A stretch of 64,000 nucleotides of DNA from Phycisphaerales bacterium (lineage in GTDB: Bacteria > Planctomycetota > Phycisphaerae > Phycisphaerales > UBA5793): NCBI GenBank assembly GCA_020852515.1, contig JADZAS010000013.1:248001-312000 (forward strand), given 5' to 3'. Position 1 is the stretch's first letter; every line of letters begins with the position of its first letter. The notes beneath the pieces were generated by a model. That model made no database searches, was not told the origin of the DNA, and worked only from the letters and a program-made list of their open reading frames with translations. Both the position numbers and the translations under genes were made by a program. Below are positions 3,813 through 29,936 of this stretch, piece after piece.

Positions 3813-4280
3813 ATGACTGGAAAACTCTCTCATGTCGATGAACGCGGGCGTGCCAGCATGGTGGATGTCGGCGGCAAGCCGCCCATGCGCCGCCGCGCCG
3901 TCGCCGAGGGCTTCTTCATCGCTCAATCCGCGACGCTCGACGCCGTCATGGACGGGCAGCTTCCCAAGGGCGAGGCCCTGGCGGTGGCGCGGGTCGCGGG
4001 CATCCTGGCGGCAAAGCGATGCGACGAATTGGTTCCCCTTTGCCACAGCCTGCCCATCGAGGCCGTGCAGGTGGACTTCGAACGCCGTGAACATGGAATC
4101 CGCATCACGGCCAGCGCGTCATTGACGGGCAAAACGGGCGTTGAGATGGAAGCCCTGACCGCCGTAGCGGTCGCGGCACTGACGCTCTATGACATGACCA
4201 AGGCCATCGATCGGGAACTGCGGATCGAAGGCATCCGGCTGCTTGAGAAGACCAAGGCGCCGGCGGCGGACGGTCGGTAA
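3813..4280 (+). CDS. moaC: Cyclic pyranopterin monophosphate synthase accessory protein MoaC
   Basis: A 155-residue MoaC, which acts with MoaA to convert GTP to cyclic pyranopterin monophosphate in the first stage of molybdenum cofactor synthesis. Visible signatures are MVDVGGKP near the N-terminus, the LCHSLPIEAVQVDF block carrying the active-site Cys-His, and EMEALTAVAVAALTLYDMTKA near the C-terminus. The length matches the family. I chose ATG 3813 (MTGKLSHVDE, preceded by GAAAGG) over TTG 3795. It follows a molybdopterin oxidoreductase, and the pair may be co-transcribed. No other moa or moe genes are in the window. Confidence 0.95.
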   Translation: MTGKLSHVDERGRASMVDVGGKPPMRRRAVAEGFFIAQSATLDAVMDGQLPKGEALAVARVAGILAAKRCDELVPLCHSLPIEAVQVDFERREHGIRITASASLTGKTGVEMEALTAVAVAALTLYDMTKAIDRELRIEGIRLLEKTKAPAADGR

Positions 4281-4454
4281 GTGGGGCCTGCACCGGAGTT
4301 TGGGGCCCGGCCGGGCGGGCAGGCAAGAATTGGTCCCCGCCGGGGCATCTGGCCGAAGTCAACGCATGGCAGGGGCCGGACCGGCCTTGGTTGGGGGTGG
4401 ACTCCCCGCTACCATTGCCCTTATTCATTCGATTTCCTCACGGGTGGTTCATCA

Positions 4455-5447
4455 ATGATCATCGACCTCGAAACGCAGGTGTGGACCAATGCGTCGCAAT
4501 TGGGAGCGGAGTCCACGGACTGGCGACTGAGGGAAGACGTAGAAACCTGGACTTCGATTGACGCCTCTCCCGCCGTGCATGAAGCGGCCATGTCGTGCGT
4601 GGATGTGGCCGTCGTGCTCGGGTTCCGCAGCCTCCACCTCGACGCGCACATTACTTCGGAGAGTGTCGCGGCATTTGTCGGCCGCCAGCCAAACCGGCGC
4701 ATCGGATTCGCCGGCATCGACCCGATGTGCGACGGCGCCCTCGATGACATCGACAAGGGCCTGGCCCTTGGTCTCTGCGGCGTGGTCATCGCGCCCGCCA
4801 CTCAGAATTTTCATCCGACCCACTCCCGGGCCATGCGCGTCTACGAGCGCTGCCAGGCCCTGGGCGTTCCCGTCCTGGTGCGGACCCAGCGCCGCCCCAC
4901 TGCCGCGACGAACATGTCCTACGGCCGGCCGTTGCTCTTTGATGAGGTGGCCCGGGCATTCCCGAATCTTCGGCTGGTCATCGGCGGACTCGGTTATCCG
5001 TGGACGGACGAGTCGTTCGTGCTCATCGGCAAGCACCGGCACGTGTACACGGATCTGGCCGGCCAGGTCTCGCGACCCTGGCAGTTGTACAACTCGCTGA
5101 TGGCCGCCTTCGAACACCGCGTGATGGAAAAGATCCTCTTCGCCTCCGGCTTCCCCTTCGACACTCCCGAGCGGGCGATCTCGCGCATCTACTCGCTCAA
5201 CAGTTACAGCCACGGCACGGACCTGCCCTCGATTCCGAGGCAGCACCTTCGCGGCATCGTCGAGCGCGATGTCTTCCACTGCCTGGGCATCGAGCGCCCC
5301 GGCGGTGCAAGCCTGACCGGCGGCATGTCGCTTCCCCCAGAGACAGTCGAAGTCATGGAAGAGGATGATGATCTTGATGCCCAGATCACGACGCTCACCG
5401 GCATGCTCCGGGAGAACGTCGAACCCGCGCCGCGCTGGAACGCCTGA
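4455..5447 (+). CDS. Amidohydrolase-2-fold protein lacking metal ligands
   Basis: A 330-residue protein whose layout follows the amidohydrolase-2 family (PF04909-like TIM barrel). It opens with MIIDLETQVW, has a central IGFAGIDPMCDGALDDIDKG, then VPVLVRTQ, FPNLRLVIGGLGYPW, VYTDLAGQ and ILFASGFPFDTPERAI. In the active family these blocks read IDxHxHxW, PxxIHxG, FPxLxxVxGHxG-x-PW and ILFGSDYP. Here the HxH, His, His and Asp ligands appear as ETQ, Arg, Gly and Gly. I therefore infer a metal-free pseudoenzyme or a protein with altered chemistry. The start is ATG 4455; the frame is open upstream to 4281 but without a better start. Confidence 0.75.
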   Translation: MIIDLETQVWTNASQLGAESTDWRLREDVETWTSIDASPAVHEAAMSCVDVAVVLGFRSLHLDAHITSESVAAFVGRQPNRRIGFAGIDPMCDGALDDIDKGLALGLCGVVIAPATQNFHPTHSRAMRVYERCQALGVPVLVRTQRRPTAATNMSYGRPLLFDEVARAFPNLRLVIGGLGYPWTDESFVLIGKHRHVYTDLAGQVSRPWQLYNSLMAAFEHRVMEKILFASGFPFDTPERAISRIYSLNSYSHGTDLPSIPRQHLRGIVERDVFHCLGIERPGGASLTGGMSLPPETVEVMEEDDDLDAQITTLTGMLRENVEPAPRWNA

Positions 5448-6066
5448 CCACCGCTCGCTGCTGGCGGCCCGATTCGCGCGAGCCCTTTTCGTCGCGCTGT
5501 GTCTGCTGCTGATGACCGGCTGCGGCCTGATGGGCCACTCCGGCGGCAACATCGAAGTCGTCGGCCTGGGCGACGATCCCGCCCGCCTCTCCGGCGATCT
5601 GAAAACGGCCGTCTACCGCTCGCGCGACGCCAATACCGCCACCTTCCTGTTCAGCGACCTCTCGCTGGACGATCTCAAGAACGGCCGCTTCGCCGACGGT
5701 CGCGTCATCTGCGTGGACATGGCCTGGCGCCCCAAGGCCGGCTCGACTCCTGTCGATCGCACCGCGACGAACTGCACCGTCCGGCAGGTCATTCTCACCG
5801 GCAGCGCCGCGGGAATCTATGACGGCGCCGGGTTCCTGGCTCCCGCGGACAGGGCGGGAAGCAACTCGTTCGGCGGATCAATCTCGGACGCGGTGCTGCG
5901 CCTTACCGAGTCCAGCAGCGGGTTCGATGACCTGCTCGGCCCGGCTGAACTGAGCGGCTCGTTCACGGCCCGGCGCGATGACGCATCGGTCGATCAGATC
6001 GCTGTGCGCCTCAACACCGAAGTGACGCGCCGCCTGGGCCACCGCTTTTACGTGCTGGGCTTCTGA
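5365..6066 (+). CDS. Predicted lipoprotein of unknown function (start uncertain)
   Basis: The hydrophobic segment ALFVALCLLLMTGC ends in a lipobox (LMTGC), so an outer-membrane or periplasmic lipoprotein is predicted, with the mature part starting at Cys (residue 53 from this start). The mature 180 residues contain RDANTATFLFSDLSLDDLKNG and end in GHRFYVLGF; I do not recognise a family. The start is unresolved. The in-frame ATGs at 5365, 5368 and 5377 overlap the upstream gene by 70-83 bases and give a long leader. The only later ATG (5512) would remove the signal, and a CTG at 5458 would fit the signal length. It precedes bamA, so an envelope role is plausible. Confidence 0.65.
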   Translation: MMILMPRSRRSPACSGRTSNPRRAGTPDHRSLLAARFARALFVALCLLLMTGCGLMGHSGGNIEVVGLGDDPARLSGDLKTAVYRSRDANTATFLFSDLSLDDLKNGRFADGRVICVDMAWRPKAGSTPVDRTATNCTVRQVILTGSAAGIYDGAGFLAPADRAGSNSFGGSISDAVLRLTESSSGFDDLLGPAELSGSFTARRDDASVDQIAVRLNTEVTRRLGHRFYVLGF

Positions 6067-6177
6067 AAGGCGTTCTGCGTGCACTCACTTGAGCCCTCCC
6101 GGGCGGTTGTGCCGCGCGGCGGGCGGCTCTACACTGTCCCCGCTGGCAGGCCGAACTCTCAGGTGAGGAACACACGG

Positions 6178-8565
6178 GTGAGATGGACATCACAATTGCT
6201 GGCCGGCTTGATGCTGGTCTTGGCGCTGGGTGCGGTGGGACGTCCCGGCGCTGCACGCGCTCAGGACGCGCCGCCTCCGGCATCGCCGCCCGTCGTCGAT
6301 GCCTTCGAAGGCCTGCCCGTCCGGCGCGTCGAATACGTCGGACTCAAGCGAGTCAGCCAGACGCTGGTGGAAAACAACATCCGCACCGCCGTCGGCGAGC
6401 CATACTCTGCCGCCACCATGCAGCAGGATGTTCGCAATCTCACGCGCCTCAACCAGTTTCGCGTCATCCTGCCCAAGGCCGAACTCACGCCCGACGGCCA
6501 GGCCGTCATCGTCACCTATCAGTTCGACGAGTGGCCGCTGGCCGAGGACGTGCAGGTCACCGGCAACCAGGCGGTGAATGACCAGGACATCTTCAACGCC
6601 ATTCTCATCCGCGTCGGCGATCCGCTCGACACGTTTCAGATCAACCGTGCCCGCGAGCAGATCGTCGAACTCTATCAGAACCGCGGTTTCTACCTCGCGC
6701 AGGTCGAAGTCGATCCCAACGTCCTGACGGACTCAAACATCATCCTGTTCAGGATCCGCGAGGGGCCGCGCGTCAAGATCAAGGCCATCGAGTATCGCGG
6801 CAACGTGGCGTTCAGCAACGAGCAGTTGAAGTCGAACCTCAAGACCAAGACCGCCATCTTCCTGCTGCGCACCGGCCAGCTCGATGAAGACGCCTTGGCC
6901 AACGACATCGCCGCACTCACGGACTACTACAAAGACCGCGGCTATCTCGACGTGCGCATCGAGCGGCAACTGGACCTCTCCAACGATCTCAAAGAAGCCA
7001 AAGTCGTGTTCCTTATCGAGGAAGGCCGCCTGTTCACGATGCGAGACGTCGTCGTCGAAGGCAGTCGCCGCCTGCTGCCGGCGCAGGTCAAGGCGCTCAT
7101 ATCGATCAAGACCGGCGACGTCTACAGCCGCGACCGCATTCAAAAGAGCCGCACCATTCTGATGGAGAGCCTGGGCCGGTTGGGTTACATCGACGTCGTC
7201 GTGGAGACGCAGGCGACGCGCGACCCCGAGCAGCCTTTCGTCGATCTGCTGATCACCATTCACGAAGGGGCGCTGGCATTCACGGGCGAAGTGACCACCA
7301 AGGGGAATCACCTCACCAAGAGCGAAGTCATCCTGCGCGAGGTGGACGTCCTGCCCAACCGCCCGCTCAACAGCGTCTACATCGAAAACGCCAAGCGCGA
7401 CATCCGCGCCACGGGACTGTTCCAGGACGTGAGCATCACGCCCTCGCAGCCCGACCTTTTCGATCCCAGTGATCTTTATCGAGATGTGAACATCGAAGTC
7501 AAGGAAGGCGACACCGGCTCGATCAACTTCGGCGCCGCAGTCAGTTCGGACCTGGGCGTCTTCGGCTCCATCGGCCTGACGCAGCGCAACTTTGACATCG
7601 CCGACTTTCCCGAGAGTTTCGACGAGTTCATCCGCGGGCGGGCGTTCCGCGGCGCCGGCCAGGTGTTCAACATCAACATTCAGCCCGGCAACGAGTTCAG
7701 CAACTACAGCGTCAGCCTGAGTGATCCCTACGTCTTCGGCACCGATAACGCGTTCTCCTCTTCGCTCGCGTACACCGAGCGGGTGCTGGAGAGTTACGAC
7801 GAGAAACGATGGGGCGGCTCGCTGCGCCTCTCGCGTCGCCTGGGCGAAGTCTGGACCGGCTACGTCTCCACGCGCTACCAGTCGATCGATCTTTCCGACA
7901 TCGACCAGTTCGCACCCGTGGACGTGTACGACGTGCAGAATGAGAACATCGTCACCGGCCTGGGCGCGGGCATCATCCGCACCACCGTCGACAATCGCGC
8001 CCGGCCGTCGCGCGGCAGCCGGCTCGAGCTGGGCATGGAGCAGATCGGCGCTCTGGGCGGCGACTTCGACTTCACCCGCCTCAGCGCCGAACACACCGTC
8101 TTTCTCACCATGGCCGAAGACTTTCTCGGCCGCAAGTCCATCCTTCAACTGCACACGCAGGTCGGCTACCAGTTCGGCGGCATGAGCCCGATCTACGAAC
8201 GCTTCTTCCTCGGCGGCCGGTCTTTCCGCGGGTTCGATTACCGCACCGTCGCGCCGCGCGGCTTGCGGCCCAACGGCCGCGTGAGCCCCGAGCCCACCGG
8301 CGGCGACTGGCTCTTCTTCGTCGGCGCCCAGTACGAATTTCCCGTCTTCGAGCGCTTCATCGGCGGCGTGGCCTTCATCGACACCGGAACCGTCACCGAA
8401 GACGTTAGTTTCGATCAGTATCGCGTCTCCGTCGGTCTGGGCGTCCGCCTCTACATCCCGCAACTGGGCCAGGCGCCGCTCGCGTTCGATTTCGGCTTCC
8501 CGATCGTGAAAGAGGACACCGACGACACGCAACTGCTCAGTTTCAGCATCGACGTGCCGTTCTGA
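6178..8565 (+). CDS. bamA: Outer membrane protein assembly factor BamA (Omp85)
   Basis: An Omp85-family protein that folds and inserts beta-barrels in the outer membrane. After a signal peptide (LLAGLMLVLALGAVGRPGAARAQ) come several POTRA repeats, recognisable by G-x-x-x-x-x-x-I-F-N/L-x-x-x-x-L blocks such as VTGNQAVNDQDIFNAILIRVG and IEYRGNVAFSNEQLKSNLKT. A C-terminal 16-strand barrel follows (about residues 420-795) with the loop-6 motif GGRSFRGFDY. It ends in Phe (DVPF), as expected for a barrel C-terminal signal. I prefer GTG 6178, with AGGTGAGGA about 10 bases upstream; the frame opens to a GTG at 6079. The following skp and lpx genes support the assignment. Confidence 0.95.
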   Translation: MRWTSQLLAGLMLVLALGAVGRPGAARAQDAPPPASPPVVDAFEGLPVRRVEYVGLKRVSQTLVENNIRTAVGEPYSAATMQQDVRNLTRLNQFRVILPKAELTPDGQAVIVTYQFDEWPLAEDVQVTGNQAVNDQDIFNAILIRVGDPLDTFQINRAREQIVELYQNRGFYLAQVEVDPNVLTDSNIILFRIREGPRVKIKAIEYRGNVAFSNEQLKSNLKTKTAIFLLRTGQLDEDALANDIAALTDYYKDRGYLDVRIERQLDLSNDLKEAKVVFLIEEGRLFTMRDVVVEGSRRLLPAQVKALISIKTGDVYSRDRIQKSRTILMESLGRLGYIDVVVETQATRDPEQPFVDLLITIHEGALAFTGEVTTKGNHLTKSEVILREVDVLPNRPLNSVYIENAKRDIRATGLFQDVSITPSQPDLFDPSDLYRDVNIEVKEGDTGSINFGAAVSSDLGVFGSIGLTQRNFDIADFPESFDEFIRGRAFRGAGQVFNINIQPGNEFSNYSVSLSDPYVFGTDNAFSSSLAYTERVLESYDEKRWGGSLRLSRRLGEVWTGYVSTRYQSIDLSDIDQFAPVDVYDVQNENIVTGLGAGIIRTTVDNRARPSRGSRLELGMEQIGALGGDFDFTRLSAEHTVFLTMAEDFLGRKSILQLHTQVGYQFGGMSPIYERFFLGGRSFRGFDYRTVAPRGLRPNGRVSPEPTGGDWLFFVGAQYEFPVFERFIGGVAFIDTGTVTEDVSFDQYRVSVGLGVRLYIPQLGQAPLAFDFGFPIVKEDTDDTQLLSFSIDVPF

Positions 8566-9432: not shown

Positions 9433-10533
9433 ATGACGCAGCAGGCCCACGATCAGGCCATCAACGGAGCGGCTGGAAAGTCGTTCACCGTCGGTGCGCT
9501 GGCGCAGCGGCTTGGCGCTGCCGTCGAAGGCCCTGAGTCGCTCGTGGTCAGCGGCCTGAACGCGCTCGATCTCGCCGGGCCGACGGACATCTCCTTCATC
9601 GGCTCCGACTCGTACGCGGCCCGGTGGGTGGAGTCGAAGGCCGTGGCCGCTGCAGTCACGAAAGATCTCATCGTGCCGGGCCACGATGCAAACCGTCGCG
9701 CTCTGCTGCGCGTGCCCAATGCCGACCTCGCCCTGGCCGAGTTGCTCTCGCTGTTTGCTCCAGTCGGCTCGCCCGTCAGGCCGGGCGTCCATCCCGACGC
9801 CACAGTCGATCCGACCGCGAGCATCGACGAGACCGCCGCGATCGGCGCGCGTGTCACAATTGCCGCCGGCTGCCGCATTGGCGCTCGCACCGTCATCGAA
9901 CCGGGCGTGCAGATCGGCAGCGACGTGGTCATCGGCGACGACTGCACGATCCGCGCGGGCGTGGTCATTCGCGAGCGCTGCATCCTCGGCCATCGCGTCA
10001 GCATCCACTCCAACTCCGTCATCGGTTCTGACGGGTTCGGCTACCGACCCGACGGGCGCGGCGGGATGCAGAAGCTGCCCCACATCGGCATCGTCGAGAT
10101 CCACGACGACGTCGAGATCGGCGCGTGCACGACCATCGACCGGGCCAAGTTCGGCAAGACGGTCATCGGCGCGCACACCAAGATCGACAACCTTGTGCAG
10201 ATCGGCCACAACGTGCGCATCGGGCGGTGCTGCGTACTCGCGTCGCAGACGGGTCTGGCCGGTACGGTGGTGCTTGAAGACTACTGCCAGCTCGGGGCCA
10301 AGTCCGGCGTTGCCGATCACCGCCGACTCGGCGCCGGCGCGCGCCTGGGAGCCATGACGGGCGTCCACAAGGACGTCGAGGCGGGGGCGGAACTGGTCGG
10401 CGCTCCCGCCACGGATCGGCGGCTGTTCTGGCAGATTCAGGCCGCCCTGCGTAAACTTCCCGACCTTGTCAAAACCGTGGCGCGCCTCGAGCAGCAGAGC
10501 CGGCGCAGCAGCGATGATCCAGACCCGGCATGA
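9433..10533 (+). CDS. lpxD: UDP-3-O-acylglucosamine N-acyltransferase LpxD
   Basis: A 366-residue enzyme of lipid A synthesis that transfers a 3-hydroxyacyl chain from ACP to the 2-amino group of UDP-3-O-acyl-glucosamine. The N-terminal uridine-binding domain (about residues 18-105) is followed by a left-handed beta-helix of hexapeptide repeats, for example [20 protein letters not shown] and [20 protein letters not shown]. The catalytic-His region is seen as [20 protein letters not shown], and a C-terminal helix follows. The ATG is 9433. Its stop overlaps the lpxC-fabZ start (ATGA), so the two are translationally coupled. Confidence 0.95.
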
Positions 10534-11996
10534 CCGACGTGCTTGAATCCAACTCGAAGTCGGCCGCACGCGTCTCTTCGGCGCCGACCGAGCCGGAAGC
10601 GTCCCGGGATGGCGCGCCCCCGCCGGTCAGAGCTGTTGAACGGCCCGCCGCCGCTTCAGCCGCCGAAACGCTCGAAGACGAGGCCCTGCACCAGCACACG
10701 CTCGCCGGACCCACTGAAGTCACTGGCCGCGGACTGTTCCATGGGGACCTGGTCACGTGCACGATTCTCCCGGCCCCGCCGGATCATGGCATCGTCTTCG
10801 AACGCATCGATCTGCCCAAGCCGGTGGAAATCCCCGCGACCATCGCCAATGTCACGCCGCGCAACCGGCGCACGACACTCAAAGTCGGCGATGTCACCAT
10901 CGAAACCGTCGAGCACTGCCTTTCCGCCCTGGCCGGTCTGGCCATTGACAACGCCGTGATCCGCCTCACCGGCCCGGAACTGCCCTGCGGCGACGGGTCC
11001 GCTCTGCCCTATGTCAACGCCATTCAGAAAGCGGGCATCGTCCGCCAGGATGCGCAGCGCCGCTACTGCCAGATCACCGAGCCGATCACCGTCGAGGAAG
11101 GCGATGCGCTGATTGCCGCCCTGCCGGCTGAGCGCGACGACCTCCAGATTCTCTACGACCTGAATTACCCCGACGAGCCTCGGATTCCGCGGCAATTGCA
11201 CGCGTTTCATCTCAATTCCGAGTCGTACGTCCGCGACATCGCCCCGGCCCGCACCTTCAGCCTCAAGGAAGAGGCCCAGGCGCTGTGGGATCGCGGCATG
11301 TGCCACCACGTCACGCCACGCGATGTGCTGGTCATCGATCAGAACGGCCCGATCGACAACGCCTTCCGCTTCGATAACGAGCCCGTGCGGCACAAAATCC
11401 TGGATGTGATCGGCGACATCTACTTGCTCGGTCGGCCGATTCACGGTCGCATCGTGGCCTACCGCTCGGGCCACTCGCTCAACCACCAGCTCGTGTACCG
11501 CCTGCTCGAGAAACTGCGGGCCGAACAGGGCCTCCAGACGCACCTGCAGCGGCAGATGGATGTCCGCTCCATCATGAAGGTGCTCCGTCACCGGTACCCC
11601 ATGCTCATGATCGACCGGGTCGTGGAGGTGCACGGCGACCAGCGGGCGATCGGCATCAAGAACGTGACGATCAACGAGCCTTTTTTTCAGGGTCATTACC
11701 CGGGGACGCCCATTATGCCCGGCGTGATGATCGTAGAGGCAATGGCGCAATTATCGGGCCTGCTGCTCAGCAGTGTGCTGGAGCACCGCGGAAAGATTGC
11801 CGTGCTATTGTCGCTGGATAAAGTTAAGCTTCGCCGCCCGGTGCTGCCGGGGGATCAGATGGTCATCGAAGCCGAGACCATCCGGGCCCAGGGACGGACG
11901 GCGAATGTGAAATGCAAGGCATTGGTCGGCGGGCAGTTGGCCGCTGAGGCCCAGATCAAATTCGTAATGGTCGATGCCGAGGACGAAACAGATTAG
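10530..11996 (+). CDS. lpxC-fabZ: Bifunctional LpxC deacetylase / FabZ dehydratase
   Basis: A 488-residue fusion. Residues about 55-340 are LpxC, the zinc deacetylase committing UDP-3-O-acyl-GlcNAc to lipid A. The zinc and catalytic signatures are [10 protein letters not shown] (Glu plus His), [18 protein letters not shown] (His and Asp) and YRSGHSLNH. Residues 344-488 are FabZ, 3-hydroxyacyl-ACP dehydratase, with [11 protein letters not shown], the catalytic His in [13 protein letters not shown] (about 389) and Glu in VEAMAQ (about 403). Such fusions are known from Bacteroidota and Planctomycetota. The N-terminal 50 residues are a low-complexity Ala/Pro/Glu extension. It couples deacetylation with supply of acyl chains and overlaps lpxD by 4 bases. 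Confidence 0.95.
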
Positions 11997-18693: not shown

Positions 18694-19248
18694 TCACCGC
18701 CCCGGATGGTCCAGGTGCACGGTGGACAGCCCCGAGGTGATCGGCTTGCGGCCAGCCTGGGTGAACCGGGCCACGAGGTCGGCCGATTCGATTCTCAGGT
18801 CGTCCCCGGCGCGGTGATCATCGTCGAGTAGCGACACTTCGATGTAATAGCACGGCCCCGGCAGCGCCCTGGTGCGTGCAGCGCGCATCTGCTCGGGCGT
18901 GAACACCCACTCGCGCAGCGGCTGCGTCTGCGGGTCCGCGTAGTCGCCCACGCGATACATCGAGATCGTCAGCGTGCCGTCCTCGTGCAGGGGATACGGA
19001 TACGGCTCGGACCAGAGGTAGATCGTCGCATCGAGACGATCGCCCATGCCGTTGCCGTTCATGTCGCGCGCATACAGCGTCGGGTGAAAGGCGAGGCGAT
19101 TGACCAGCAGCGAAGACGGCTGGGAAGGGATCGTCGCCGGCTGCGGATTCAGCGGAGCCTGGCCGTCTTCGTATTCGGTCACGCAGCCCGCCGGGCCCAG
19201 CGCCAGCGCAGACAGCGACAGGATGCAGGCGCATCGAAAAATTCTCAC
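18694..19248 (-). CDS. Lipoprotein coupled to the giant secretin; candidate pilotin
   Basis: A 184-residue protein with a lipoprotein signal (CILSLSALALGPAGC). Its GTG start overlaps the secretin stop by 4 bases (GTGA), so translation is coupled. The mature part is beta-rich and contains a DMNGNGMGDRLD segment whose Asp/Asn spacing resembles a calcium-binding loop, then DATIYLWSEPYPYP and CYYIEVSLLDDD. I do not recognise the family, and it is not visibly similar to GspS or PilW. Position and lipidation suggest a pilotin or an outer-membrane partner of the secretin; this is inference only. Confidence 0.65.
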   Translation of the reverse strand: MRIFRCACILSLSALALGPAGCVTEYEDGQAPLNPQPATIPSQPSSLLVNRLAFHPTLYARDMNGNGMGDRLDATIYLWSEPYPYPLHEDGTLTISMYRVGDYADPQTQPLREWVFTPEQMRAARTRALPGPCYYIEVSLLDDDHRAGDDLRIESADLVARFTQAGRKPITSGLSTVHLDHPGR

Positions 19249-22200
19249 GATCGCTCCTCCTCTCGACTCGCGGGCTCCCGAGCCGCCGGCTGATCGCTCG
19301 GCTCGTCGCGGCGCGGCTTGCTCCTGCCCGGCGCCGGGTCTTCCCAGAGCGTCGGGTCGATGTCGCCTGCCCGGATCTGCTCTTTCGTCTTAGCCGGGAT
19401 CGTCATGTCGATGATCGCCTCATCCGTGAACTGGCGGGCCTCCTCAACCGAGCCGACCACGTGCGGCGTGATGACCACGAGAAACTCTGTCTTTTCGCGC
19501 CGGTGCAGCCGCGTGCGGAACGGCAGGCCGAAGATCGGAATGTCGCCCAGGAACGGGACCTTCTGGTTGCGCGTTTCGGTTCGCGTCGAGAACAGCCCGC
19601 CGATGACCACCGTCTGGCCGTCCTTGACCGTCACGACCGTGTCCACGGTGCGCGTGTCGATGATCGGCGCCTGGAAATCTTCGCTCACCTGCGTCGTGCG
19701 GGCCGACAGGCTCGAGATTTCCGGCTTGACCTCCATGCGCACGAACCGGTCCGGGCTGATGGAGGGCAGCACGTCGAGGATGATGCCGATGTCCTTGCGC
19801 GTCACGCTGGACCTCGCCGTGCCGGTGTCGGAGATCTGCACGTCTTCGACGATGCCGATGTTCTGGCCGACCTGGAAGGTCGCATTCACGTTGTTGTTGA
19901 CGAGGATCTGCGGCCGGCTGAGCACTTCAAGACGCCCCTGCGCTTCGAGGGCGCGGATGAGCAGTTCGAGATCGTCCGTGGACACGGAGAGATTGGGCAC
20001 ACCCAGGCCCGACAGCGTCGCCGCAGCCAGGCCGAACGTCGAGCCGGCCGTCACATTCTCGCCGCCCAGCGGACCCACGCTGACATCCATGCCCCACTGC
20101 TCATCCGAGTCGAGCGTCACCTCGGCGAGCATGACCGAGATGAGCACCTGCGGCGGGTTCTTGTCCAGTTCCCTGATCATGCTCTCGATCTTGTCCATGT
20201 AACGCGGCGAGGCGGAGATCATCAGCGTGTTCGAATCCTCCACGCCGACGACGGATACTTCGCGCTCGAGCTGTTGCAGGATCGAGCCGGCGCGATCCGG
20301 CCCCAGCGTGCGGAGGATGCGCTCCTGCTCTTGGGTCAGGAAAGTGTTGAGCGCCTGGGCGACGTCCGCGGCTCGCGCGTTGCGCAGCGGGTAGACCTGT
20401 TCGAGCCGCTGCGTGCCCGTCTTGGAATCGAGTTCGGTGATGACCTCTTCGACGAGATCGAGATAGCGCGGCGTGCCCGAGACGATGAGGCTGTTGGTCC
20501 GCGGATCAACCGTCATGGACAGTTGCTGCCGCTCGTCGGTCGCGGTGACCAGTTCGGTGTCGTTGAAGGTGGCGACGACGTTGTCGCCGGGCGGGCCGGA
20601 CGCCGGGTCGTCGTCGCGCGGCCGCAGGATGAGCCCCTGCTCTGGCAGGTTGAACAGTTGACCGAGCAGTTCGGCCATCTGCAGCGCATCGGAGTTGACC
20701 AGTTCAAAGATCCGCACCCGCTTCGAACCCGTCTCGGATGAATCGAGTTCATCGATGAGTTCGCGGATCATTCGCATGGACGACGCCGGTGCGGAGACGA
20801 CGATCGAATTGGTGCGCAGATCGGGAGTGAAGCGGATCGCCTCGCGCACGGCCATGGAGATTTCGGCCTCGGTCGGCTCGCCGTCGCGCTGATCTTCCAG
20901 TTTTTCGCGCGTCGAGTCGCGGATGAAGCGAATGATGGTCGCCTGGTCCTGGGTGCCGCCGCCGCGCCGCCCGCCGGAGAGCACGTTTTCAAGCAGCGGG
21001 ACGATCTCAATCGCGTTGGCTGCGTTGAGCGGGATCATCTGGATCTCGCGCACGTCGGTCACCTGCGTCGATTCGAGTTCGTTGATCAGGTCGCGCAGCG
21101 CGGCAATATCCGAAGCCGGCGCCGAAATGGCGATGGCGTTGAGCCGCATGTCGGGTGAAACGCGAATGGTGCCATCGCCGCGCGTGCGGTTGGCTTCGGT
21201 TACGTAGAGCGCGTTGAGCTGATCGACCATGCGGTCCGCACGCGAATTGCGCAGCGTGATGATCTCGACTTCGGCGCCGGTGGAGGCGAGGTTTTCGGCG
21301 TCGCTGAGCGTGGTGATCAGGCCGCGGATGATTTCAAGATTCTCATCGCTGGCGGCGACGATGAGGCTGTTGGTCGCCGCGTCGGGCTGGATCACCGTCC
21401 GGTCCTGCGCGCCGGCCGACTCGCCCAGCGAGCGCTCGCGCTCGCGCATGAGCGCCTCGAGGCGCGGGGCCAGCACTTCGACGCGCTGCCCGCTGATCGG
21501 GATGACGTGCAGGCTCAGCGCCGGGTTGAACGGCGCGTTCTCCAGGCGCGTCACGAGTTCGTTGATGCGCTTCAGATCGTCGGCGCTGGCAGTGACCAGC
21601 AGGCTGTTGGTGCGCGAGTCGGTGAGGACCAGCGGCTTTTCGCGCGAGGCGAGTTCGCTGGGCAGATCGGCGTACTGCCGATCCATCACGCGCTGAATCG
21701 TGTCGGCGACTTTGGCGGCATTGCCGCGATTGAGCGGGATGATCTGAACGTCGTTGGCGGTCGAGGCGCGCGTATTCTCGAGCGAACTGGCCAGTTGCTC
21801 GATCACTTCGAAACTCTCGTTGCCCGCCGTCACGAGCAGGCTGTTGGTGCGCGAGTCGGCGACGATGACCGCCTGCTGCTGGTCGGCCGTCTCCGGCTCG
21901 GTCTGGCGCAGGCGATCAAGCCGCGAATCCATCAGCCGCTGGATGAGCGGCGCAATTACCGTCGCAGACGCGTTGCTCAGGCGGATCATGCGGATGTCGT
22001 GCAGCTCGGCCGTCTTCTCGGAGTCGAGCGACTGCAGGAGCATCTCGGTGACCGCGAAACTGCGCGGGCTGGTGGTGATAATGAGCGAGTTGGTCCGTTC
22101 GTCAGCCTGCACGGCAAGCCGGTCTTCATCGCGGATCGCACCCGTCTGCGCCTGTCGATCGAACAGCGCCGTGAGAATGGACGCCACGCGGCTGGCCGTG

Positions 22201-25200
22201 GCGTGCCCGAGGGGATAGATGCGCACCGCGTTGGACGGCGCCGCCGCGGGCACGTCGAGCATCGCGACCAGTTCGCTCACGGCTTCAATATTCTCCGGCG
22301 TGCCGACGACGACGATCGCGTTCAGTTTGCTGTCGGGCCGAATGACCAGCCGCGTCATAGGCACGAAGAGATCGGCATCGACCATGTCCTGCGGCCCGCC
22401 GCCGCGCCGGGCGATGCGCAGGCGCCCGACCTGCTTCTGCATGGCCTGCGCCTCGGGGCCGGTCGCCTGGCCGCGCACGAGCACTTCATCGAGCATCTCG
22501 GCCAGCGCTTCAGCGTCGGCGTGGCGCAACGTGAGCACGCGCGGCTCAACCCACTTGGCGGCGATGTCGCTGTCGAGTTTGCCAATCAGCACCTCCACCA
22601 GCGCCACCGACGCCTCGCGGCCGGCGACGATCAGCGTGTTCGTCCGCTCGTCCACCGTCATGGCGACATCCTCGAGCAGCGCGCCGCCCACCTCGGTCAG
22701 CGGACGACCTTCAATGTTCGTGCCCGGCTGTGTCGCGAGTTTACGGCCCTGCGAGAAGAGATCTTCCGCGATCGACTTCATCATGGTCGCGGCGATGTTG
22801 CTCAGCGGGAACAGGCGCACCGTCACCGCTTCCGTCACCGGGAGCTTATCGAACAATCGCACGATCTCGGCCAGCGCTTCGCAATTGGCGGGCGTCGAAC
22901 TGATGAGCACGCCGTTCACGTTCGGCGCGGGCAGCACGCGAATCGGCTGCGTGAGATCGAGATTGAGATCTTCCTGCGTGGCTCCATCGCGGCGCAGGCT
23001 CAGCCGCCGCACCTGCTCCTGAATCGCCACGGCCATGGGCGTGTCGGCGTGCTGCTCGCCGGGCTTGAGCAGGTCGCGGATGATCGTCGCCACCGCGCTC
23101 GCCTCGGCCTGGCGCAGTTCGATGAGCCGCACCTGCGCCTGCGCAAAGTCCGGCGCTGCATCAAGCGCTGCGATGATCGAGAGAATGCGCTCGCGATCTC
23201 CCGGATTGCCGACCACGGCCAGCGCGCGCCGTCCGGGCAGAACGCTGACCTTGAGCGGCTCGCCGAGGATTCCCGCGGCCCCTTCCCGCTGCTTGTCGAG
23301 ATCGAGCGATTCGAGAATCCGCTTCATCTCTTCGGGGGCAATGTTTTCGATGGGCACGACGAAAATCTGCTGCCCGCCGGATGGCCCGAGGCGATCGAGT
23401 TCTTCCACCACCTGCACGATCTGCGAGTAGAGGCGCGCCGAAGAGGCGATAACGAGCGTATTGGCCACGCTGTCCACCTCGATAGCCAGCGGCTCTTCCA
23501 TGGATCGGGCCGTGGCGGTGAAGGTTTCGCGAATCGCCTCCGCCACGCGCGGCGCGCTCGCCTTGGCCAGCGCCAGCACCCGCACCGACATGCCTTCCTT
23601 GCGCGAAGTCTGTTCGAGCGCCCTGGCCAGCGCCTCGATCTGCGAGAACTCATCAGGTTCGGCGCGGACGATGATGGTGTTGGAGGCGGTGTCGGCGGAG
23701 ATGACGATCGACTTGCGTCCGCCGCGGCGGGCGCCGGCCCCGCTGCGCTCATCGGCGTACATGCTGGTGATCGTGGCGGCCACTTCGGCGGCTTTGGCCT
23801 CGTTGAGCGGGATCAGCTGAGCCGGCGGCAACTGCGCGTAGTCCGCCACGTCCAGGCTCGTCACGATCGCCTGGATCTTCTCGAGGTTGCGCCGAGACGC
23901 CGAGACGATGATCGAGTTCGTCAGCGGCTCGGCCGCGGCGCGGACGACGTCGGTGTCATCCACGAGCACGCGAGGCACGTTGCCGCCCTCGCCCTGTTCG
24001 CCGTTGCCGCGACGCACCGGCTGCTCGCCGCCGCGCCGCGCTTCGACCTGCGGCGCGAACGCCTGGTTGATCGCCGCGCTCACCGACGAGGCGTCTGCGT
24101 AGCGCAGTGCGATGACTTCCAGTTGCAGCGTCGCGTCGTATTCCTTGCCGTCCAGTTTGCTGATGAGTTCCTTGATTCCCGGCCACTCGCCTTCCTCGGC
24201 CGAAATGACCAGGCTGTTGCTCACCGGGTCTGAGACGATCGACACGTTCTGCTTGGAGGGCGTGTCCGCTTCGCTCGCCCACCGGCCGTAGAACATGTCC
24301 AGCGCCGAGGCGACCTTTTCGGCCTGCGCGAACTTGATCGGAATGAACTCGGTCGTGCGCACCGTCGCCGCAGGCAGGTCGATCTGCTTGAGGATCTGCT
24401 CGACCTCCGCGTGCTGTTCGGCTGTGGCGGCGATGATGAGGCCGTTGTCGCGGGGCGAAGTAGAGACGGTCGGCACAGGGTCGCTCGACGTGCCGCCGCG
24501 CTGCGCGAGCAGCGTCGAAAGCGTGAGGCGCACATCGCTGGCCACGATGTGCGTCAACGGGTAGATGCGATACTCGCGCACGCTCTTGACGGGCGCTTCA
24601 TCCAGTTCGCCCACGAACCGCGCGATGAGCGGCATCGACTCGGGGGTGGCCACGACGATCACCGCGTTGTTGCGCGTGTTGGCGGTGATGCGGGCGTCGA
24701 TGGCAATGGGCTGCTGGCCCTGCTCCTGGCCTTCGAGCATGAAGCGCGTCACTTCCTCCTGGATGTTCCGGGCCTGGTTGCGCTGCGGCTGGCGGCTCAG
24801 GTCGAACGCGTCATTGAGCACATCGGCCACTTCCGCGGCGCGGGCGTTGGCAAGCGCAAAGGTCTGGATGAGTTTCACTGTCCCCGCCGGCGGCGCATCG
24901 ATCATCGCGAGCACCGCGTCGATCTCCTCGAAGCGGTCTTCGGGCGCGCTGATGACGATGCTGTTGGTGCGCGCATCAGCGGTGACGACCACCTGCCGCG
25001 CCGGCGGCTCATTGCGCGTGGGGAAGAGATCGCGCAGCGTGCGCATCGCGTCGCTCGCGTCGCCATGCTCGAGCATGTGCAGCCGGAAGGCCCGGTCGTC
25101 GCCTTCGCTGGGCACGTCGATGCTGCTCAGCAGATCGCGGATGGTGGCGATCTGCTGAGCGGTGGCGGAGACGACGATCTTGCCCGATTCGTTGGCCGGC

Positions 25201-28200
25201 GTCATCGTGATGCCTGGATCGGGCAGATTCGCCGCTCGGGCCCGATCGTTGAAGAACCGCACCAGGCTCTGGGCCACGTCGCTGGGCCGCGCGTGCGCGA
25301 TAGTGAGGATTTCAATCGTCTGATCGGGCCTGAGCGACGCCTTGTCGAGTTCGGCGACGAAGTCCGCTATGCCGTCGAGTTCAGACTCGCGGCCGGACAC
25401 GATGAGCAGCTTGTTGTCCGGGTCGGCGATGATCTTCACCTCGTCCGGATCGGGCGGGTAATACCACCAGAAGTTGTTCGACTGCGAGGCGCCGTAGCTT
25501 TCGCGCGCGGCCCGGCTGATGATGTTCACATCGCCGTTTTCGATCTTCAGAATGCGCACCGAGCGCACCGCCTGCTGATCGGCCGGCGCGTCCAGAGCGC
25601 GGATCACGTTTTCGATGAGCGCAAAGTTCTCACCCGTGCCGCTGACCACGAGCGAATTGGTGCGCCGGTCTGGCTGGATGCTGATCTTGCCGCGCGACTC
25701 CGACCGTCCGCCCCACCGGCCCACCGCATCGTCGTAGGTCAGTTCCCAGCCCATGCTGCTGACGATGTTCGACACGTCCTCAGCCTTGGCGAACTTGAGC
25801 GGGATGATCTCGTACTTAAGGTCCTGCGCTTCGCTGGGCGCATCGAACGCCTTGAGCAGGTCCTGCATTTCGGCAAAGTCCTGGTCAGACGCCGCCACGA
25901 AGACCGTGCTGGAGCGCTGATCGCCCACCACGCTGATGCGCCGCGGCGGCCGCGCCTGGCCCGGCCGCTGATTCAGGCGGGCCCGGTCCTCGAAGAACTG
26001 CTGCAATGCGCTGGCGGCGCGTTGGGCATCGGCCCGCTCGAGCTTGATCGCGCGGATCGGCAGTTCCTTCGTTTCGAATCGATCGACTTCCTTCACAACA
26101 TCCTGAATCGCCCGCAAGTCTTCCTCGCCCGCGCGGATGAGCAGCAGTTGGGACGGATCATCGGGTACGATGACGATGCGCTCGCGCCGCTTCGGATCGC
26201 CGCCGATGAGAACCTGGTCGATGATCTGCTTGAGACGGCTGGGCGTCGCGCTCTGTGTTTCGAGAATCGTCAGCGGCGGAGCGTCTTCGATGGGCGTAAA
26301 CCGGTTCATCGCCGCCAGCACCCGGCCGATCACTTCGAAGTCCACGTCGTTGGCGCTGACGATCAGTCCCCCGCCCGGCTGGTCGGGTATGACGGCAACC
26401 TCACCCGTCAATCCACCCGCCACGCCTCGCCGGCGCATCTGGGTGAGCAACCCGTTGATCGTGTTGGCGATCTGGCCGGCGTTGGCGCGTTCATCGAGCG
26501 CGATGTAGTGGATCTGCTCGGGCAGACCGGGAATCTGCGACTGGATCTGCTCGGCCAGCTGCGCCAGCCGGTCGTTGGCCTGCGGTGAGCCGACCACGAT
26601 CAGGCTGTTGGACGCTTCGTCCACGGCGATGATGACATCCGGCTCCTGAGCCGGCGGATCGATCGCGAGCACCGACGCCGCGAGCGCAGCGGCGAAGCCG
26701 TCCAATCGCGTCGCATCCTCGTGCTTCAGTTCCGGCGCCACGGACAGATCGGCGCCGATGGGCGTCAGTTGAGCGCCATCATCACCGGCGTCCTGCTCTT
26801 CGCTCTTCTGCCGCCTGATGAGTTCATCGATGCTGATGATCTCGACGCGCGCGCCGCTGCGCTGTTCGAGCAGCCGGCGGAGCGTTTCGGCCGTCTGGGC
26901 CGCATCGGCCTTCGATCGGTCGATGGGAATCATGCGCACTTCGCGCGCTGCGCTGATCGTGGCGGTCTCGAGGTCGTTGATGATGCCTTCGATGACGGCG
27001 AACTGTTCGGAGGTGCCGCGCACGATCAGGCAGTTGCTCCCCGCGTCCACGCGGATGACCGGGGGAACCGCGCTGCCCGTCGTTTCGTCGCCGAGCACGG
27101 CTTGCAGATTCGCAGCAACGTCCTGCGCCCGCGCATTGAGCAGCGGCAGCACGCGCACCGAGCGCTGCGGCCCGGTCGCGATCTTGGTCGGATCGACGTC
27201 AAGTTGCCGCACCATCTCTTCGGCGAGGTTGAGCACAGAGGTCGGCGCGCTGATGACCACGGCGTTAAGTCGCGACTCCGCCGCCACGCGCACATCCGGC
27301 CCGAGATCGGGCAGTTGCCAGCCGCGCCGCATGAAGTCGAATCGCATCCACTGATCCATCTGCTCGCCGCGCAGCAGTTGCTCGACCATCGGCGCCACCC
27401 GGTCCGCCTGCGTGTGCTTGAGGAATACGGTGCGCACCTGCGGCTGATCGGACGCCTGGCCCGAGTCGAGGCTCTCCACGAGCGCGGCGATCTCCTTCAT
27501 CTCGTCGGGGGTCGCGGCAACGACGATCGAATTCGTCGATTCTTCGGCCATGACGCTCGCGACGCGGCCGGGCGGGCTGGAGCCCTGCCGGTTCTGGAGC
27601 AGACTCGAGATCGCCGGGGCAACGTTGGCGGCCCTGGCCTGCACGAGGTTGAACACCTGCAGTTCAACCGTCTCATCGCCGTTGCGCGGCTGGTCGTACT
27701 CGCGGATAATCGACTGGATGATCTGGTGCTGCGCCGGCTGGGCGGCGACGAGCAGCGAATTCGTCGCTTCGACGACTTCGACCAGCGGCGCCGGTCCGAT
27801 GGCGCCGCCCTGGAACGATTTCGAAGCCGACACGAGATCGGTGAGGAACTTCGCGGCCTTGGCCGCGCTGACGTTCTGCAGCGCCAGGAGGCGCACATCG
27901 CGTCCGCTGCCCAGCGTCTGCTGCAACTGCGTGAGGATCGCCATGTAGCGCGACATCGCCGGCGCATCGGCCACGACGTAGAACACGCCCGCAGTCGCAT
28001 CGTGCTCGACGCTGACCTCAGTCAGTGCCGCGTCGGCCTGGCGCTGCTGGGCGTAGATCTCGCCGGCTCGCGCGAGAATCTGCGCCGCGTCGGCATTGCC
28101 GACGTTGACCACGCGGAACTGCACGTCGCGGCTGCGCTTCTCATCGAGCGTCTTGACCACCGAGTCAATCACCGGCGCCTGCTCGGGCAGCGCCGTGACG

Positions 28201-29936
28201 AGAATCACATCCAGCGCATCGACGGGCACGATCTCGGGCGCGACAAACGGCGAGCCGTCATCCGGAGTGAGCAGTTGGGCGCACAGCGTCTTAAGCGGCG
28301 CCGCGATTCGGCTGGCCTGTCCGGGCGAAACGCTGATCTGCCGGGTCTCGCGCTCGATGGGCAGAGCCGATTCGACCGTGGTGAGCAACTGCTGCCAGCG
28401 GGTGATGGCGTCGCGCCGGCCGATCAGCGTGATGGCGTTCGACTCCGGATCGCGCTCGACGACCACCTGGCTCATCGGGTCCGCCTCGGCTGAACCGACC
28501 TCGCGGCCGTAGAGGTCGCTCACGCGCCGGATCACGTCGTCGGCGTCGCCGCGCGCCAGGCGGATGATCCGCACCTCGCGCGGGCGGTCGGTCGGCTCGA
28601 CATCGAGCGTCTGCGCCAATTGCCGCACGAGTTCGACATCCGACGCCGGGCCGGCGAGGATAAGTGAGCGACCGTCGGGTGAGGGCAGCGTATTGACCAG
28701 GCGCGCCTGCCGCGGCGTCATGAGTTGCCTGAGCGCCTGCTGCACGCTGGCGGGCGCGGCAAAGCGCAGCGGCACGACAGCCGCGGTGCGGGCGAAATTC
28801 ACCGGGTCGTCTCCCCCGCCGTCCACCTCTTTAAGCAGCGTCACCGCCCGCTCGAGCGCGATCGCCGAGCCGACGATGGTGATGCGATTGAGTTCTTCCA
28901 GCGGCAGGATGACGGGCTTCTCTTCGTTCTTGAGCGGCTTGAACAGGTCAGTGAGCAGCCTCGCCGCTTCCTGCGTCGAGATGCGGCCGAGGTTGATCGT
29001 CGTCATGTCCGTGCCGTCGGCCCCCTGCTGGCCGGGCACGTCGAGCATGTTGATCATGTCCTCGAGCGTTTCGAGCCGGCCGATGGGCCCCTTGGCGATG
29101 ATGGTGTTCGTGCGGCTGTCGGGCTGGATGCGCAGGCCGGCAAGGTCGTCTTCCTCGAGTTTGACCTGCTGGCCCTGCTGATTGATGACATACTTGACAA
29201 TGCGCTCGCTCATGAGGATCTTGAGCGTGTCCACCAGCGCGCTGGCCTGCGCGTTCTTGATGGGGAAGATGCGCACCTGGTCCTGGTAGTCGCCGGCCGT
29301 GTCGAGCGCGTCGATGATGGTCTGCAGCCGGCGGATCTGGCCGGCGGTTTCCGTGACCAGCAGCGCGTTCTGCTGAGGCAGCGGCGTGAGCCCGCCGTAG
29401 GCGCCAACCAGCGACTGCAGCCGCTCGGAGAGTTCAGCGGCGGTGATGTTCTGCAGCGGGATGAGGACGGTGACCAATTGCTCGTTGGTCACGTCGCCGG
29501 GGATCGTCCCGGCGAGATAGGTCGGCCCGGGATTGGTCTTGTCGAATGTTCCGAGGTACAGAAACTCGCCGTCGCGCGACAGCGTTACGCCCTTGGTCTG
29601 CAGGATGATGTTGAGAATGCGCAGCGCTTCGGTGTACGAGTAGGAGTCGGGCGAGAAATAGGTCAGCGCGCCCTTGGGCGGCTCGACCTTGGCAATCACC
29701 GGCAGTCCTACCGCCCGGCTGAAGAAGTCGATGACGTCGGCGTAGGGCGCATCCTTAAAGTTGAACTGCACCGTCGGCTCGGGCGCGTCAGGCGCCGGCT
29801 GCGAGGCTGGCTGCGCTTGTGTTGAAAGCGCGGGCTCCGGCGCCGGCTCGTCTTGCCCATGTACCGCCGAGGCGAAGCCCAGCGCGGCGAGAGTTGCAAC
29901 GTGCAGCAGGCAAGACCTGATGCTGGTGTTCAGCAT
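19245..29936 (-). CDS. gspD: Giant type II secretion-like secretin with about 37 N-domains
   Basis: A single uninterrupted frame of 3563 residues. A signal peptide (residues 1-27, ending SAVHGQ) and a Pro/Ala linker lead to an N0/STN-like domain (about 52-130: VQFNFKDAPYADVIDFFSRA). About 37 consecutive N1-type secretin modules follow (about 140-3260), averaging 84 residues. Each has an opening strand (V-R-I-x-P-L), a helix, an Asp-x-x-TNSLIVSA strand and a closing helix ending near LD. The last 303 residues are an ordinary secretin pore domain with LEVLSRPQILVNNN, GQTVVIGGLFS and the VPFLGDIPIFG signature. Normal GspD is about 650-700 residues with three N1-type domains. The ATG has AAGGAG upstream. 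It is preceded by gspM/C and followed by a coupled lipoprotein gene. It should form the outer-membrane channel. Confidence 0.95.
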   Translation of the reverse strand: MLNTSIRSCLLHVATLAALGFASAVHGQDEPAPEPALSTQAQPASQPAPDAPEPTVQFNFKDAPYADVIDFFSRAVGLPVIAKVEPPKGALTYFSPDSYSYTEALRILNIILQTKGVTLSRDGEFLYLGTFDKTNPGPTYLAGTIPGDVTNEQLVTVLIPLQNITAAELSERLQSLVGAYGGLTPLPQQNALLVTETAGQIRRLQTIIDALDTAGDYQDQVRIFPIKNAQASALVDTLKILMSERIVKYVINQQGQQVKLEEDDLAGLRIQPDSRTNTIIAKGPIGRLETLEDMINMLDVPGQQGADGTDMTTINLGRISTQEAARLLTDLFKPLKNEEKPVILPLEELNRITIVGSAIALERAVTLLKEVDGGGDDPVNFARTAAVVPLRFAAPASVQQALRQLMTPRQARLVNTLPSPDGRSLILAGPASDVELVRQLAQTLDVEPTDRPREVRIIRLARGDADDVIRRVSDLYGREVGSAEADPMSQVVVERDPESNAITLIGRRDAITRWQQLLTTVESALPIERETRQISVSPGQASRIAAPLKTLCAQLLTPDDGSPFVAPEIVPVDALDVILVTALPEQAPVIDSVVKTLDEKRSRDVQFRVVNVGNADAAQILARAGEIYAQQRQADAALTEVSVEHDATAGVFYVVADAPAMSRYMAILTQLQQTLGSGRDVRLLALQNVSAAKAAKFLTDLVSASKSFQGGAIGPAPLVEVVEATNSLLVAAQPAQHQIIQSIIREYDQPRNGDETVELQVFNLVQARAANVAPAISSLLQNRQGSSPPGRVASVMAEESTNSIVVAATPDEMKEIAALVESLDSGQASDQPQVRTVFLKHTQADRVAPMVEQLLRGEQMDQWMRFDFMRRGWQLPDLGPDVRVAAESRLNAVVISAPTSVLNLAEEMVRQLDVDPTKIATGPQRSVRVLPLLNARAQDVAANLQAVLGDETTGSAVPPVIRVDAGSNCLIVRGTSEQFAVIEGIINDLETATISAAREVRMIPIDRSKADAAQTAETLRRLLEQRSGARVEIISIDELIRRQKSEEQDAGDDGAQLTPIGADLSVAPELKHEDATRLDGFAAALAASVLAIDPPAQEPDVIIAVDEASNSLIVVGSPQANDRLAQLAEQIQSQIPGLPEQIHYIALDERANAGQIANTINGLLTQMRRRGVAGGLTGEVAVIPDQPGGGLIVSANDVDFEVIGRVLAAMNRFTPIEDAPPLTILETQSATPSRLKQIIDQVLIGGDPKRRERIVIVPDDPSQLLLIRAGEEDLRAIQDVVKEVDRFETKELPIRAIKLERADAQRAASALQQFFEDRARLNQRPGQARPPRRISVVGDQRSSTVFVAASDQDFAEMQDLLKAFDAPSEAQDLKYEIIPLKFAKAEDVSNIVSSMGWELTYDDAVGRWGGRSESRGKISIQPDRRTNSLVVSGTGENFALIENVIRALDAPADQQAVRSVRILKIENGDVNIISRAARESYGASQSNNFWWYYPPDPDEVKIIADPDNKLLIVSGRESELDGIADFVAELDKASLRPDQTIEILTIAHARPSDVAQSLVRFFNDRARAANLPDPGITMTPANESGKIVVSATAQQIATIRDLLSSIDVPSEGDDRAFRLHMLEHGDASDAMRTLRDLFPTRNEPPARQVVVTADARTNSIVISAPEDRFEEIDAVLAMIDAPPAGTVKLIQTFALANARAAEVADVLNDAFDLSRQPQRNQARNIQEEVTRFMLEGQEQGQQPIAIDARITANTRNNAVIVVATPESMPLIARFVGELDEAPVKSVREYRIYPLTHIVASDVRLTLSTLLAQRGGTSSDPVPTVSTSPRDNGLIIAATAEQHAEVEQILKQIDLPAATVRTTEFIPIKFAQAEKVASALDMFYGRWASEADTPSKQNVSIVSDPVSNSLVISAEEGEWPGIKELISKLDGKEYDATLQLEVIALRYADASSVSAAINQAFAPQVEARRGGEQPVRRGNGEQGEGGNVPRVLVDDTDVVRAAAEPLTNSIIVSASRRNLEKIQAIVTSLDVADYAQLPPAQLIPLNEAKAAEVAATITSMYADERSGAGARRGGRKSIVISADTASNTIIVRAEPDEFSQIEALARALEQTSRKEGMSVRVLALAKASAPRVAEAIRETFTATARSMEEPLAIEVDSVANTLVIASSARLYSQIVQVVEELDRLGPSGGQQIFVVPIENIAPEEMKRILESLDLDKQREGAAGILGEPLKVSVLPGRRALAVVGNPGDRERILSIIAALDAAPDFAQAQVRLIELRQAEASAVATIIRDLLKPGEQHADTPMAVAIQEQVRRLSLRRDGATQEDLNLDLTQPIRVLPAPNVNGVLISSTPANCEALAEIVRLFDKLPVTEAVTVRLFPLSNIAATMMKSIAEDLFSQGRKLATQPGTNIEGRPLTEVGGALLEDVAMTVDERTNTLIVAGREASVALVEVLIGKLDSDIAAKWVEPRVLTLRHADAEALAEMLDEVLVRGQATGPEAQAMQKQVGRLRIARRGGGPQDMVDADLFVPMTRLVIRPDSKLNAIVVVGTPENIEAVSELVAMLDVPAAAPSNAVRIYPLGHATASRVASILTALFDRQAQTGAIRDEDRLAVQADERTNSLIITTSPRSFAVTEMLLQSLDSEKTAELHDIRMIRLSNASATVIAPLIQRLMDSRLDRLRQTEPETADQQQAVIVADSRTNSLLVTAGNESFEVIEQLASSLENTRASTANDVQIIPLNRGNAAKVADTIQRVMDRQYADLPSELASREKPLVLTDSRTNSLLVTASADDLKRINELVTRLENAPFNPALSLHVIPISGQRVEVLAPRLEALMRERERSLGESAGAQDRTVIQPDAATNSLIVAASDENLEIIRGLITTLSDAENLASTGAEVEIITLRNSRADRMVDQLNALYVTEANRTRGDGTIRVSPDMRLNAIAISAPASDIAALRDLINELESTQVTDVREIQMIPLNAANAIEIVPLLENVLSGGRRGGGTQDQATIIRFIRDSTREKLEDQRDGEPTEAEISMAVREAIRFTPDLRTNSIVVSAPASSMRMIRELIDELDSSETGSKRVRIFELVNSDALQMAELLGQLFNLPEQGLILRPRDDDPASGPPGDNVVATFNDTELVTATDERQQLSMTVDPRTNSLIVSGTPRYLDLVEEVITELDSKTGTQRLEQVYPLRNARAADVAQALNTFLTQEQERILRTLGPDRAGSILQQLEREVSVVGVEDSNTLMISASPRYMDKIESMIRELDKNPPQVLISVMLAEVTLDSDEQWGMDVSVGPLGGENVTAGSTFGLAAATLSGLGVPNLSVSTDDLELLIRALEAQGRLEVLSRPQILVNNNVNATFQVGQNIGIVEDVQISDTGTARSSVTRKDIGIILDVLPSISPDRFVRMEVKPEISSLSARTTQVSEDFQAPIIDTRTVDTVVTVKDGQTVVIGGLFSTRTETRNQKVPFLGDIPIFGLPFRTRLHRREKTEFLVVITPHVVGSVEEARQFTDEAIIDMTIPAKTKEQIRAGDIDPTLWEDPAPGRSKPRRDEPSDQPAAREPASREEERS
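20157..29519 (-). repeat. Array of about 37 secretin N-domain modules inside gspD
   Basis: By reading the translation I counted 37 repeats of the pattern strand-helix-strand-(D-x-R-TNSLIV)-helix-LD, each roughly 70-115 residues. Most are highly diverged in protein sequence. Modules 31 and 32 share the DSRTNSLLVTA core and are near-identical in DNA there (around 21593-21625 and 21831-21863 on the plus strand), which suggests recent duplication or conversion. Modules near 6, 7, 13, 14, 15 and 26 lack the TNS core. The count could be off by one or two. Confidence 0.85.

Follow-up and report, generated by a model that had tools for sequence, protein, structure and literature searches.

Repeated loss of the metal ligands in an amidohydrolase-like protein of the Phycisphaerae

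We describe an amidohydrolase-like gene, carried on a 64,000-nt stretch of a Phycisphaerales genome (hereafter "the window"), whose protein has, as judged from alignments, lost its whole metal site, and whose orthologues across the planctomycete class Phycisphaerae (hereafter "the class") have on the same basis lost each ligand repeatedly, many times, from ligand-bearing ancestors. Most accounts of pseudoenzymes concern a single event; here, the same five ligands were seemingly lost again and again from one orthologous gene, which is yet kept in most genomes of the class. We think it probable that these proteins form a class-wide pseudo-amidohydrolase with a non-catalytic role, perhaps that of a binding or regulatory subunit working alongside a lipoprotein and, in some families, a symporter. 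The members grade naturally from intact to empty sites, which makes the new role testable apart from the old chemistry, and the pipeline label "amidohydrolase" would mislead for most of the 112 class members compared here.

The gene and its emptied metal site

An open reading frame check of the window places the ATG of the gene at 4455 and the end of its stop codon at 5447. The product contains a single Pfam family, Amidohydro_2 (PF04909; E 2.3e-23, scoring 83.8 bits where the cut-off is 26.4), of which the genome has one clear copy, the other match reaching only 35.9 bits. We aligned 92 orthologues, one per genome and including the window's own copy, and read columns 6, 8, 143, 178, and 232. 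Many orthologues keep HxH, H, H, and D in these same columns, which are therefore the ligand columns. The features of the gene, with codon positions taken from this alignment, are:

4455..5447, + strand, coding sequence of the Amidohydro_2 fold without metal ligands (330 aa; PF04909, 83.8 bits)
4470..4478, + strand, E6-T7-Q8 replacing the strand-1 HxH
4881..4883, + strand, R143 replacing the strand-5 His
4986..4988, + strand, G178 replacing the strand-6 His
5148..5150, + strand, G232 replacing the strand-8 Asp

All five ligand positions are replaced in the window protein (E6, Q8, R143, G178, and G232), leaving it with none of the metal-site features of the ACMSD type (strand-1 HxH, strand-5 His, strand-6 His, and strand-8 Asp). 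A previous reading of the sequence alone (the sequence-only reading) had picked out four altered motifs, and these are present as described: LETQVW (4467-4484), VRTQ (4878-4889), GGLGYPW (4983-5003), and ASGFP (5142-5156). The same five replacements recur in 5/5 genomes of the genus, with synonymous codon differences at codons 8, 143, and 178, a recurrence that goes beyond chance, and the sister genus carries ETQ/R/Q/N. The pattern ETQ/R/G/G, whose conservation among homologues had been raised as a question, is in the sample confined to the window's genus, and elsewhere the replacements differ; the ligand loss itself is real in this gene but not peculiar to it, being class-wide. A relative titled Phycisphaerales bacterium UBA5793 has 91% identity. 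A sigma-70 consensus scan of 4100-6300 returned no promoter- or terminator-like site, with a chance expectation about as low, and is hence uninformative.

Loss and selection across the class

Matches at E 0.001 were obtained in 50/61 near relatives, 253/298 class genomes, and 85/246 phylum genomes, and the best match was at E 2e-25 or better in 237/298 class genomes (16 weak best matches left out). Beyond the class, the best match in the phylum sample reached E 7.0e-48, so that distant homologues are present elsewhere. One locus (L003, WYBR01000029.1; f-, G-, and L-numbers denote families, genomes, and loci in our sample) is titled Vicinamibacteraceae and encodes a protein 87% identical to the window's; the title is probably misassigned.

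The 92 orthologues range from intact to empty sites, with five, four, three, two, one, and no ligands kept in 7, 21, 16, 6, 11, and 31 members, the last figure including one locus (L069) that is gapped in columns 6 and 8, probably through a misread start. After 20 extra class members from far families had been added via the family profile, the corresponding numbers among the resulting 112 were 7, 23, 30, 9, 11, and 32. Eight homologues from other classes (seven genomes) served as the outgroup, six with the state HHHHD and two with HNHHD. A lysine occupies column 111 in 8/8 outgroup sequences and in 0/112 class members. The outgroup states thus place an intact site ahead of the origin of the class, and its decay within the class. 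Homologues with intact ligands, which the sequence-only reading had named as grounds for refuting it, do exist (7/112 in the class and 6/8 in the outgroup), but what they reveal is loss rather than misalignment.

To follow repeated loss, we built a tree of 120 proteins from which the five ligand columns were left out and in which a branch with full support (100) set the outgroup apart. For columns 6, 8, 143, 178, and 232, in that order, the minimum numbers of switches between a ligand and another residue were 8, 13, 14, 10, and 10, and the losses, if ligands are never regained, were 11, 18, 16, 15, and 13 (gaps scored as loss; one column-8 loss may be the outgroup's), counts that are approximate because many inner branches are poorly supported (43/117 open). 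The tree of the 92 orthologues gave 8, 12, 13, 9, and 10 fewest changes.

The gene is not simply decaying, given a dN/dS of 0.046-0.134 in 10 pairs drawn from the five genomes of the genus. When 280 columns of the 92 orthologues were ranked for conservation by entropy, the ligand columns 6, 8, 143, 178, and 232 came at ranks 171, 155, 238, 196, and 122, with D4, W10, G180, P182, W183, S231, and P234 in the top 30 and T7 at rank 50. In an enzyme, one would expect the opposite of such drifting ligand columns beside near-invariant neighbours. With purifying selection in the genus added, these columns support the earlier proposal that selection acts on something other than metal-dependent hydrolysis; the gene combines lost catalytic residues with purifying selection, as that of a pseudoenzyme would. 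Several other residues are characteristic of the class, i.e., R262 (91/92 orthologues, 1/8 outgroup sequences), R167 (89/92, 0/8), W209 (88/92, 2/8), E270 (88/92, 0/8), and H120 (82/92, 2/8), and these are candidates for the new function.

The lipoprotein and symporter genes

Directly downstream in the window lies a second gene, whose start is uncertain, with in-frame ATGs at 5365, 5368, and 5377, all of which fall within the 3' terminal part of the amidohydrolase-like gene:

5365..6066, + strand, downstream partner coding sequence, a predicted lipoprotein (Cys codon 5521-5523 in ...LLLMTGC...)

A member of this lipoprotein family comes directly after the amidohydrolase-like gene, on its strand, in 69/92 loci and, marginally (E 0.052), in one more, its matched part starting -26 to 186 nt from the amidohydrolase-like stop; three loci without it cover just 1.1-2.3 kb from the start of the target gene onward. 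The neighbour is present in 7/7 loci whose protein keeps five ligands and in 28/31 whose protein keeps none. The next commonest neighbour family, whose members resemble UbiE-like methyltransferases by eye, occurs in 18/89 loci. Within the lipoprotein family, the Cys is invariant in 55/55 aligned members and a strict lipobox pattern fits 53/68. Pfam gave no family beyond LPAM_1 in 1/55 members, and the family profile found nothing better than E 0.19 among PDB sequences. The structural model (pLDDT 78.0) had LpqH as its best fold match (4xin, Z 8.0), which is unconvincing, and a Foldseek search with it returned no match at E 0.001 or better. As judged by profile searches, the family is nearly confined to the class, having been found in 13/246 genomes of the phylum-wide sample, 12 of them in the class and one outside it at E 8.9e-5. 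It is a second undescribed family and, as a conserved neighbour, offers a concrete candidate for a partner.

By best match, 142 of the 298 class genomes have both genes, 95 the amidohydrolase-like gene only, 30 the lipoprotein only, and 31 neither, the spread of the lipoprotein being a lower bound with 10 candidates scored per genome; obligate pairing of the two genes is rejected by these counts. No amidohydrolase-like remnant was detected (hmmsearch, E up to 10) in 20 lipoprotein loci where that gene is missing or elsewhere. Lipoprotein genes without the amidohydrolase-like gene were seen in several genomes (G020, G038, G006, and others), mostly of family f2, and the reverse case occurs in the same family (G023, G027, G046, and G049).

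In four families (f18, f20, f23, and f24), a sodium:neurotransmitter-type symporter gene (PF00209) lies downstream on the same strand in 14/14 loci, at 17-160 nt in 13 of them and, in the remaining locus, with a matched part at a distance of 737 nt, and the lipoprotein gene is not beside the amidohydrolase-like gene. In the main set, a symporter gene was found in 7/92 loci, being directly downstream in L119, 4.6 kb away in L053, and just past the lipoprotein gene in L013, L055, L058, L065, and L074 (on the opposite strand in the last four). One of the 20 fetched lipoprotein loci (L174, genome G080) has the lipoprotein gene adjoining a symporter gene, the target gene being far away. The window's genome does not have the two side by side, its sole symporter match lying 132 kb away, and because of this distance and the low count in the main set the link to transport is carried mainly by the distant families. 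None of the 8 outgroup loci has the lipoprotein or the symporter within about 5 kb of the homologue, and 5/8 adjoin genes that act in the metabolism of small molecules (creatininase, class-III aminotransferase, 3-hydroxyacyl-CoA dehydrogenase, and enolase-superfamily enzymes).

Elsewhere, the window holds an outer-membrane assembly cluster with a BamA-type protein (6079-8565; POTRA, Omp85) and an LpxD-like open reading frame (9433-10533), just after which comes a 488-aa open reading frame (10530-11996, + strand) that looks by eye like an LpxC-FabZ fusion. A 458-aa open reading frame (420-1796, + strand) has no Pfam family at E 0.001. One 3563-aa open reading frame (19245-29936, - strand) combines a secretin domain (PF00263, residues 3329-3494) with 33 Secretin_N stretches (PF03958), an array whose length is, to our knowledge, unusual.

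Interpretation and comparison with known systems

Read as the history of a non-catalytic subunit, these data would start from a metal-dependent ancestral enzyme with HxH, His, His, Asp, and the column-111 lysine, which we take to have been an ACMSD/COG2159-type enzyme of planctomycetes. Both the lysine and the dependence on metal chemistry would have gone at, or close to, the root of the class. The ligand residues then drifted off independently in many lineages, until none was left in the window's family, while the residues round the emptied site and the class-specific H120, R167, W209, R262, and E270 were retained, as the barrel presumably was. As a binding or regulatory subunit, its most likely role, the protein may hold a small molecule in the former pocket or associate with another protein, and would form a unit with the lipoprotein and, in some families, also with a Na+-coupled amino-acid-type transporter. 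The data show homology, ligand loss, its repetition, purifying selection, and the gene neighbours; we infer the loss of catalysis from sequence, and the binding or regulatory role and the link to the envelope and to transport are presumed. A limit is set by the 7/112 members with all five ligands, which could still be enzymes.

What fills the emptied site bears on the choice between readings. Opposite charges occur among the five positions in 26/42 members with at most one ligand (the gapped row dropped), against a mean of 15.8 in column shuffles, 0/2000 of which reached 26. Their arrangements vary, with E6 and R143 in the window's family and R8 with E143, R8 with D/E178, or an acid at 6 with R8 elsewhere, and the 42 members show 31 different states at the ligand columns. 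Salt bridges in place of the metal are on this account suggestive and go no further, because a tree-aware pair test of the charge pairing was not significant (no support; median p 1, few pairs).

The same charges could instead belong to a metal-independent enzyme, its site rebuilt for other chemistry with, e.g., Arg or acid residues, to which we assign a small but appreciable probability. Within this Pfam family, a precedent for metal independence is the lactonase LigI, and both the conserved barrel mouth (G180, P182, W183, S231, and P234) and the excess of opposite charges over the shuffles would suit such an enzyme. However, the replacements vary between lineages, so that no common new catalytic set is visible at the ligand columns, and the excess of charge pairs draws no support from the tree-aware test. 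We regard as rather unlikely a proposal that would make the family, across the class, a ligand sensor or a gating subunit that serves Na+-coupled solute uptake without a metal, paired with the class-specific lipoprotein, its site erased independently more than 10 times and repacked with salt bridges in several lineages.

That the intact-ligand members are still hydrolases or decarboxylases, with unrelated decay elsewhere and no common new role, seems improbable. The members with five (7/112) and four (23/112) ligands would be in keeping with it, but the lipoprotein neighbour accompanies full and empty sites alike, which fits one ligand-independent role, and the column-111 lysine is gone from all 112, the intact members included. 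A relocated metal site, in which other His, Asp, or Glu residues bind the metal near the old place, is more improbable still. H120 is conserved, and E6, H65, and D236 are found in the genus; H120 is, however, also present in intact-ligand members and is therefore no substitute ligand, and the other three are, by eye, not common to other degenerate members. An alignment placing other His or Asp residues in the metal site had been named as a further ground for refutation, and the alignments, to which this search was confined, contain no alternative His/Asp set specific to degenerate members and able to rebuild the site. A pseudogene in decay, to which the lost active site might point, has next to no probability in view of the open frame, the low dN/dS in all 10 pairs, and the retention of a match in 237/298 class genomes.

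In the open-licence literature, we found nothing joining pseudoenzyme, amidohydrolase, and metal ligand, nothing on BB4693 (see below), nothing on topic by title for amidohydrolases in the Phycisphaerae or for pseudoenzymes with amidohydrolase, and no usable lead on metal-independent members, LigI, lipoproteins of the class, or accessory subunits of symporters. The decarboxylases and hydrolases of the ACMSD/COG2159 group (PF04909) share the family and probably the fold of the window protein. These enzymes hold a metal through HxH, His, and Asp, ligands of which none is left in the window protein. A model of the latter, made from an alignment of six close sequences and of low confidence (mean pLDDT 48.8), matched 3irs_A best (Z 11.6, rmsd 4.3, 213 aligned), with ACMSD next (human ACMSD, 7pwy, Z 10.5). 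The 3irs structure is that of BB4693 from Bordetella bronchiseptica (PDB 3irs, 3k4w), an uncharacterised TIM barrel that is also the best sequence match (E 9.3e-5 with the window protein alone, 2e-18 with the family profile). In an alignment whose matched part leaves strand 1 outside, BB4693 too has lost ligands, with Met for the strand-5 His and Ala for the strand-8 Asp; unlike the window protein, it has the strand-6 His. Its host belongs to another phylum, and with two ligands missing there, the loss in this branch may extend past the class.

Two further systems share the retention of an amidohydrolase chain that no longer catalyses. The CRMP or dihydropyrimidinase-related proteins of animals are amidohydrolase-superfamily members without catalysis; they belong to another branch and have one family-wide loss, against many parallel losses in the class. 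The pseudo-dihydroorotase (pDHO) of Pseudomonas aeruginosa is an inactive amidohydrolase-superfamily chain with a structural role, on which its partner ATCase depends for activity (PMC7053772), and thus a precedent for a chain that is kept although inactive. It differs in lying in the dihydroorotase branch, in serving pyrimidine synthesis, and in having an enzyme as its partner, whereas the window protein has a lipoprotein as its neighbour, with a symporter elsewhere.
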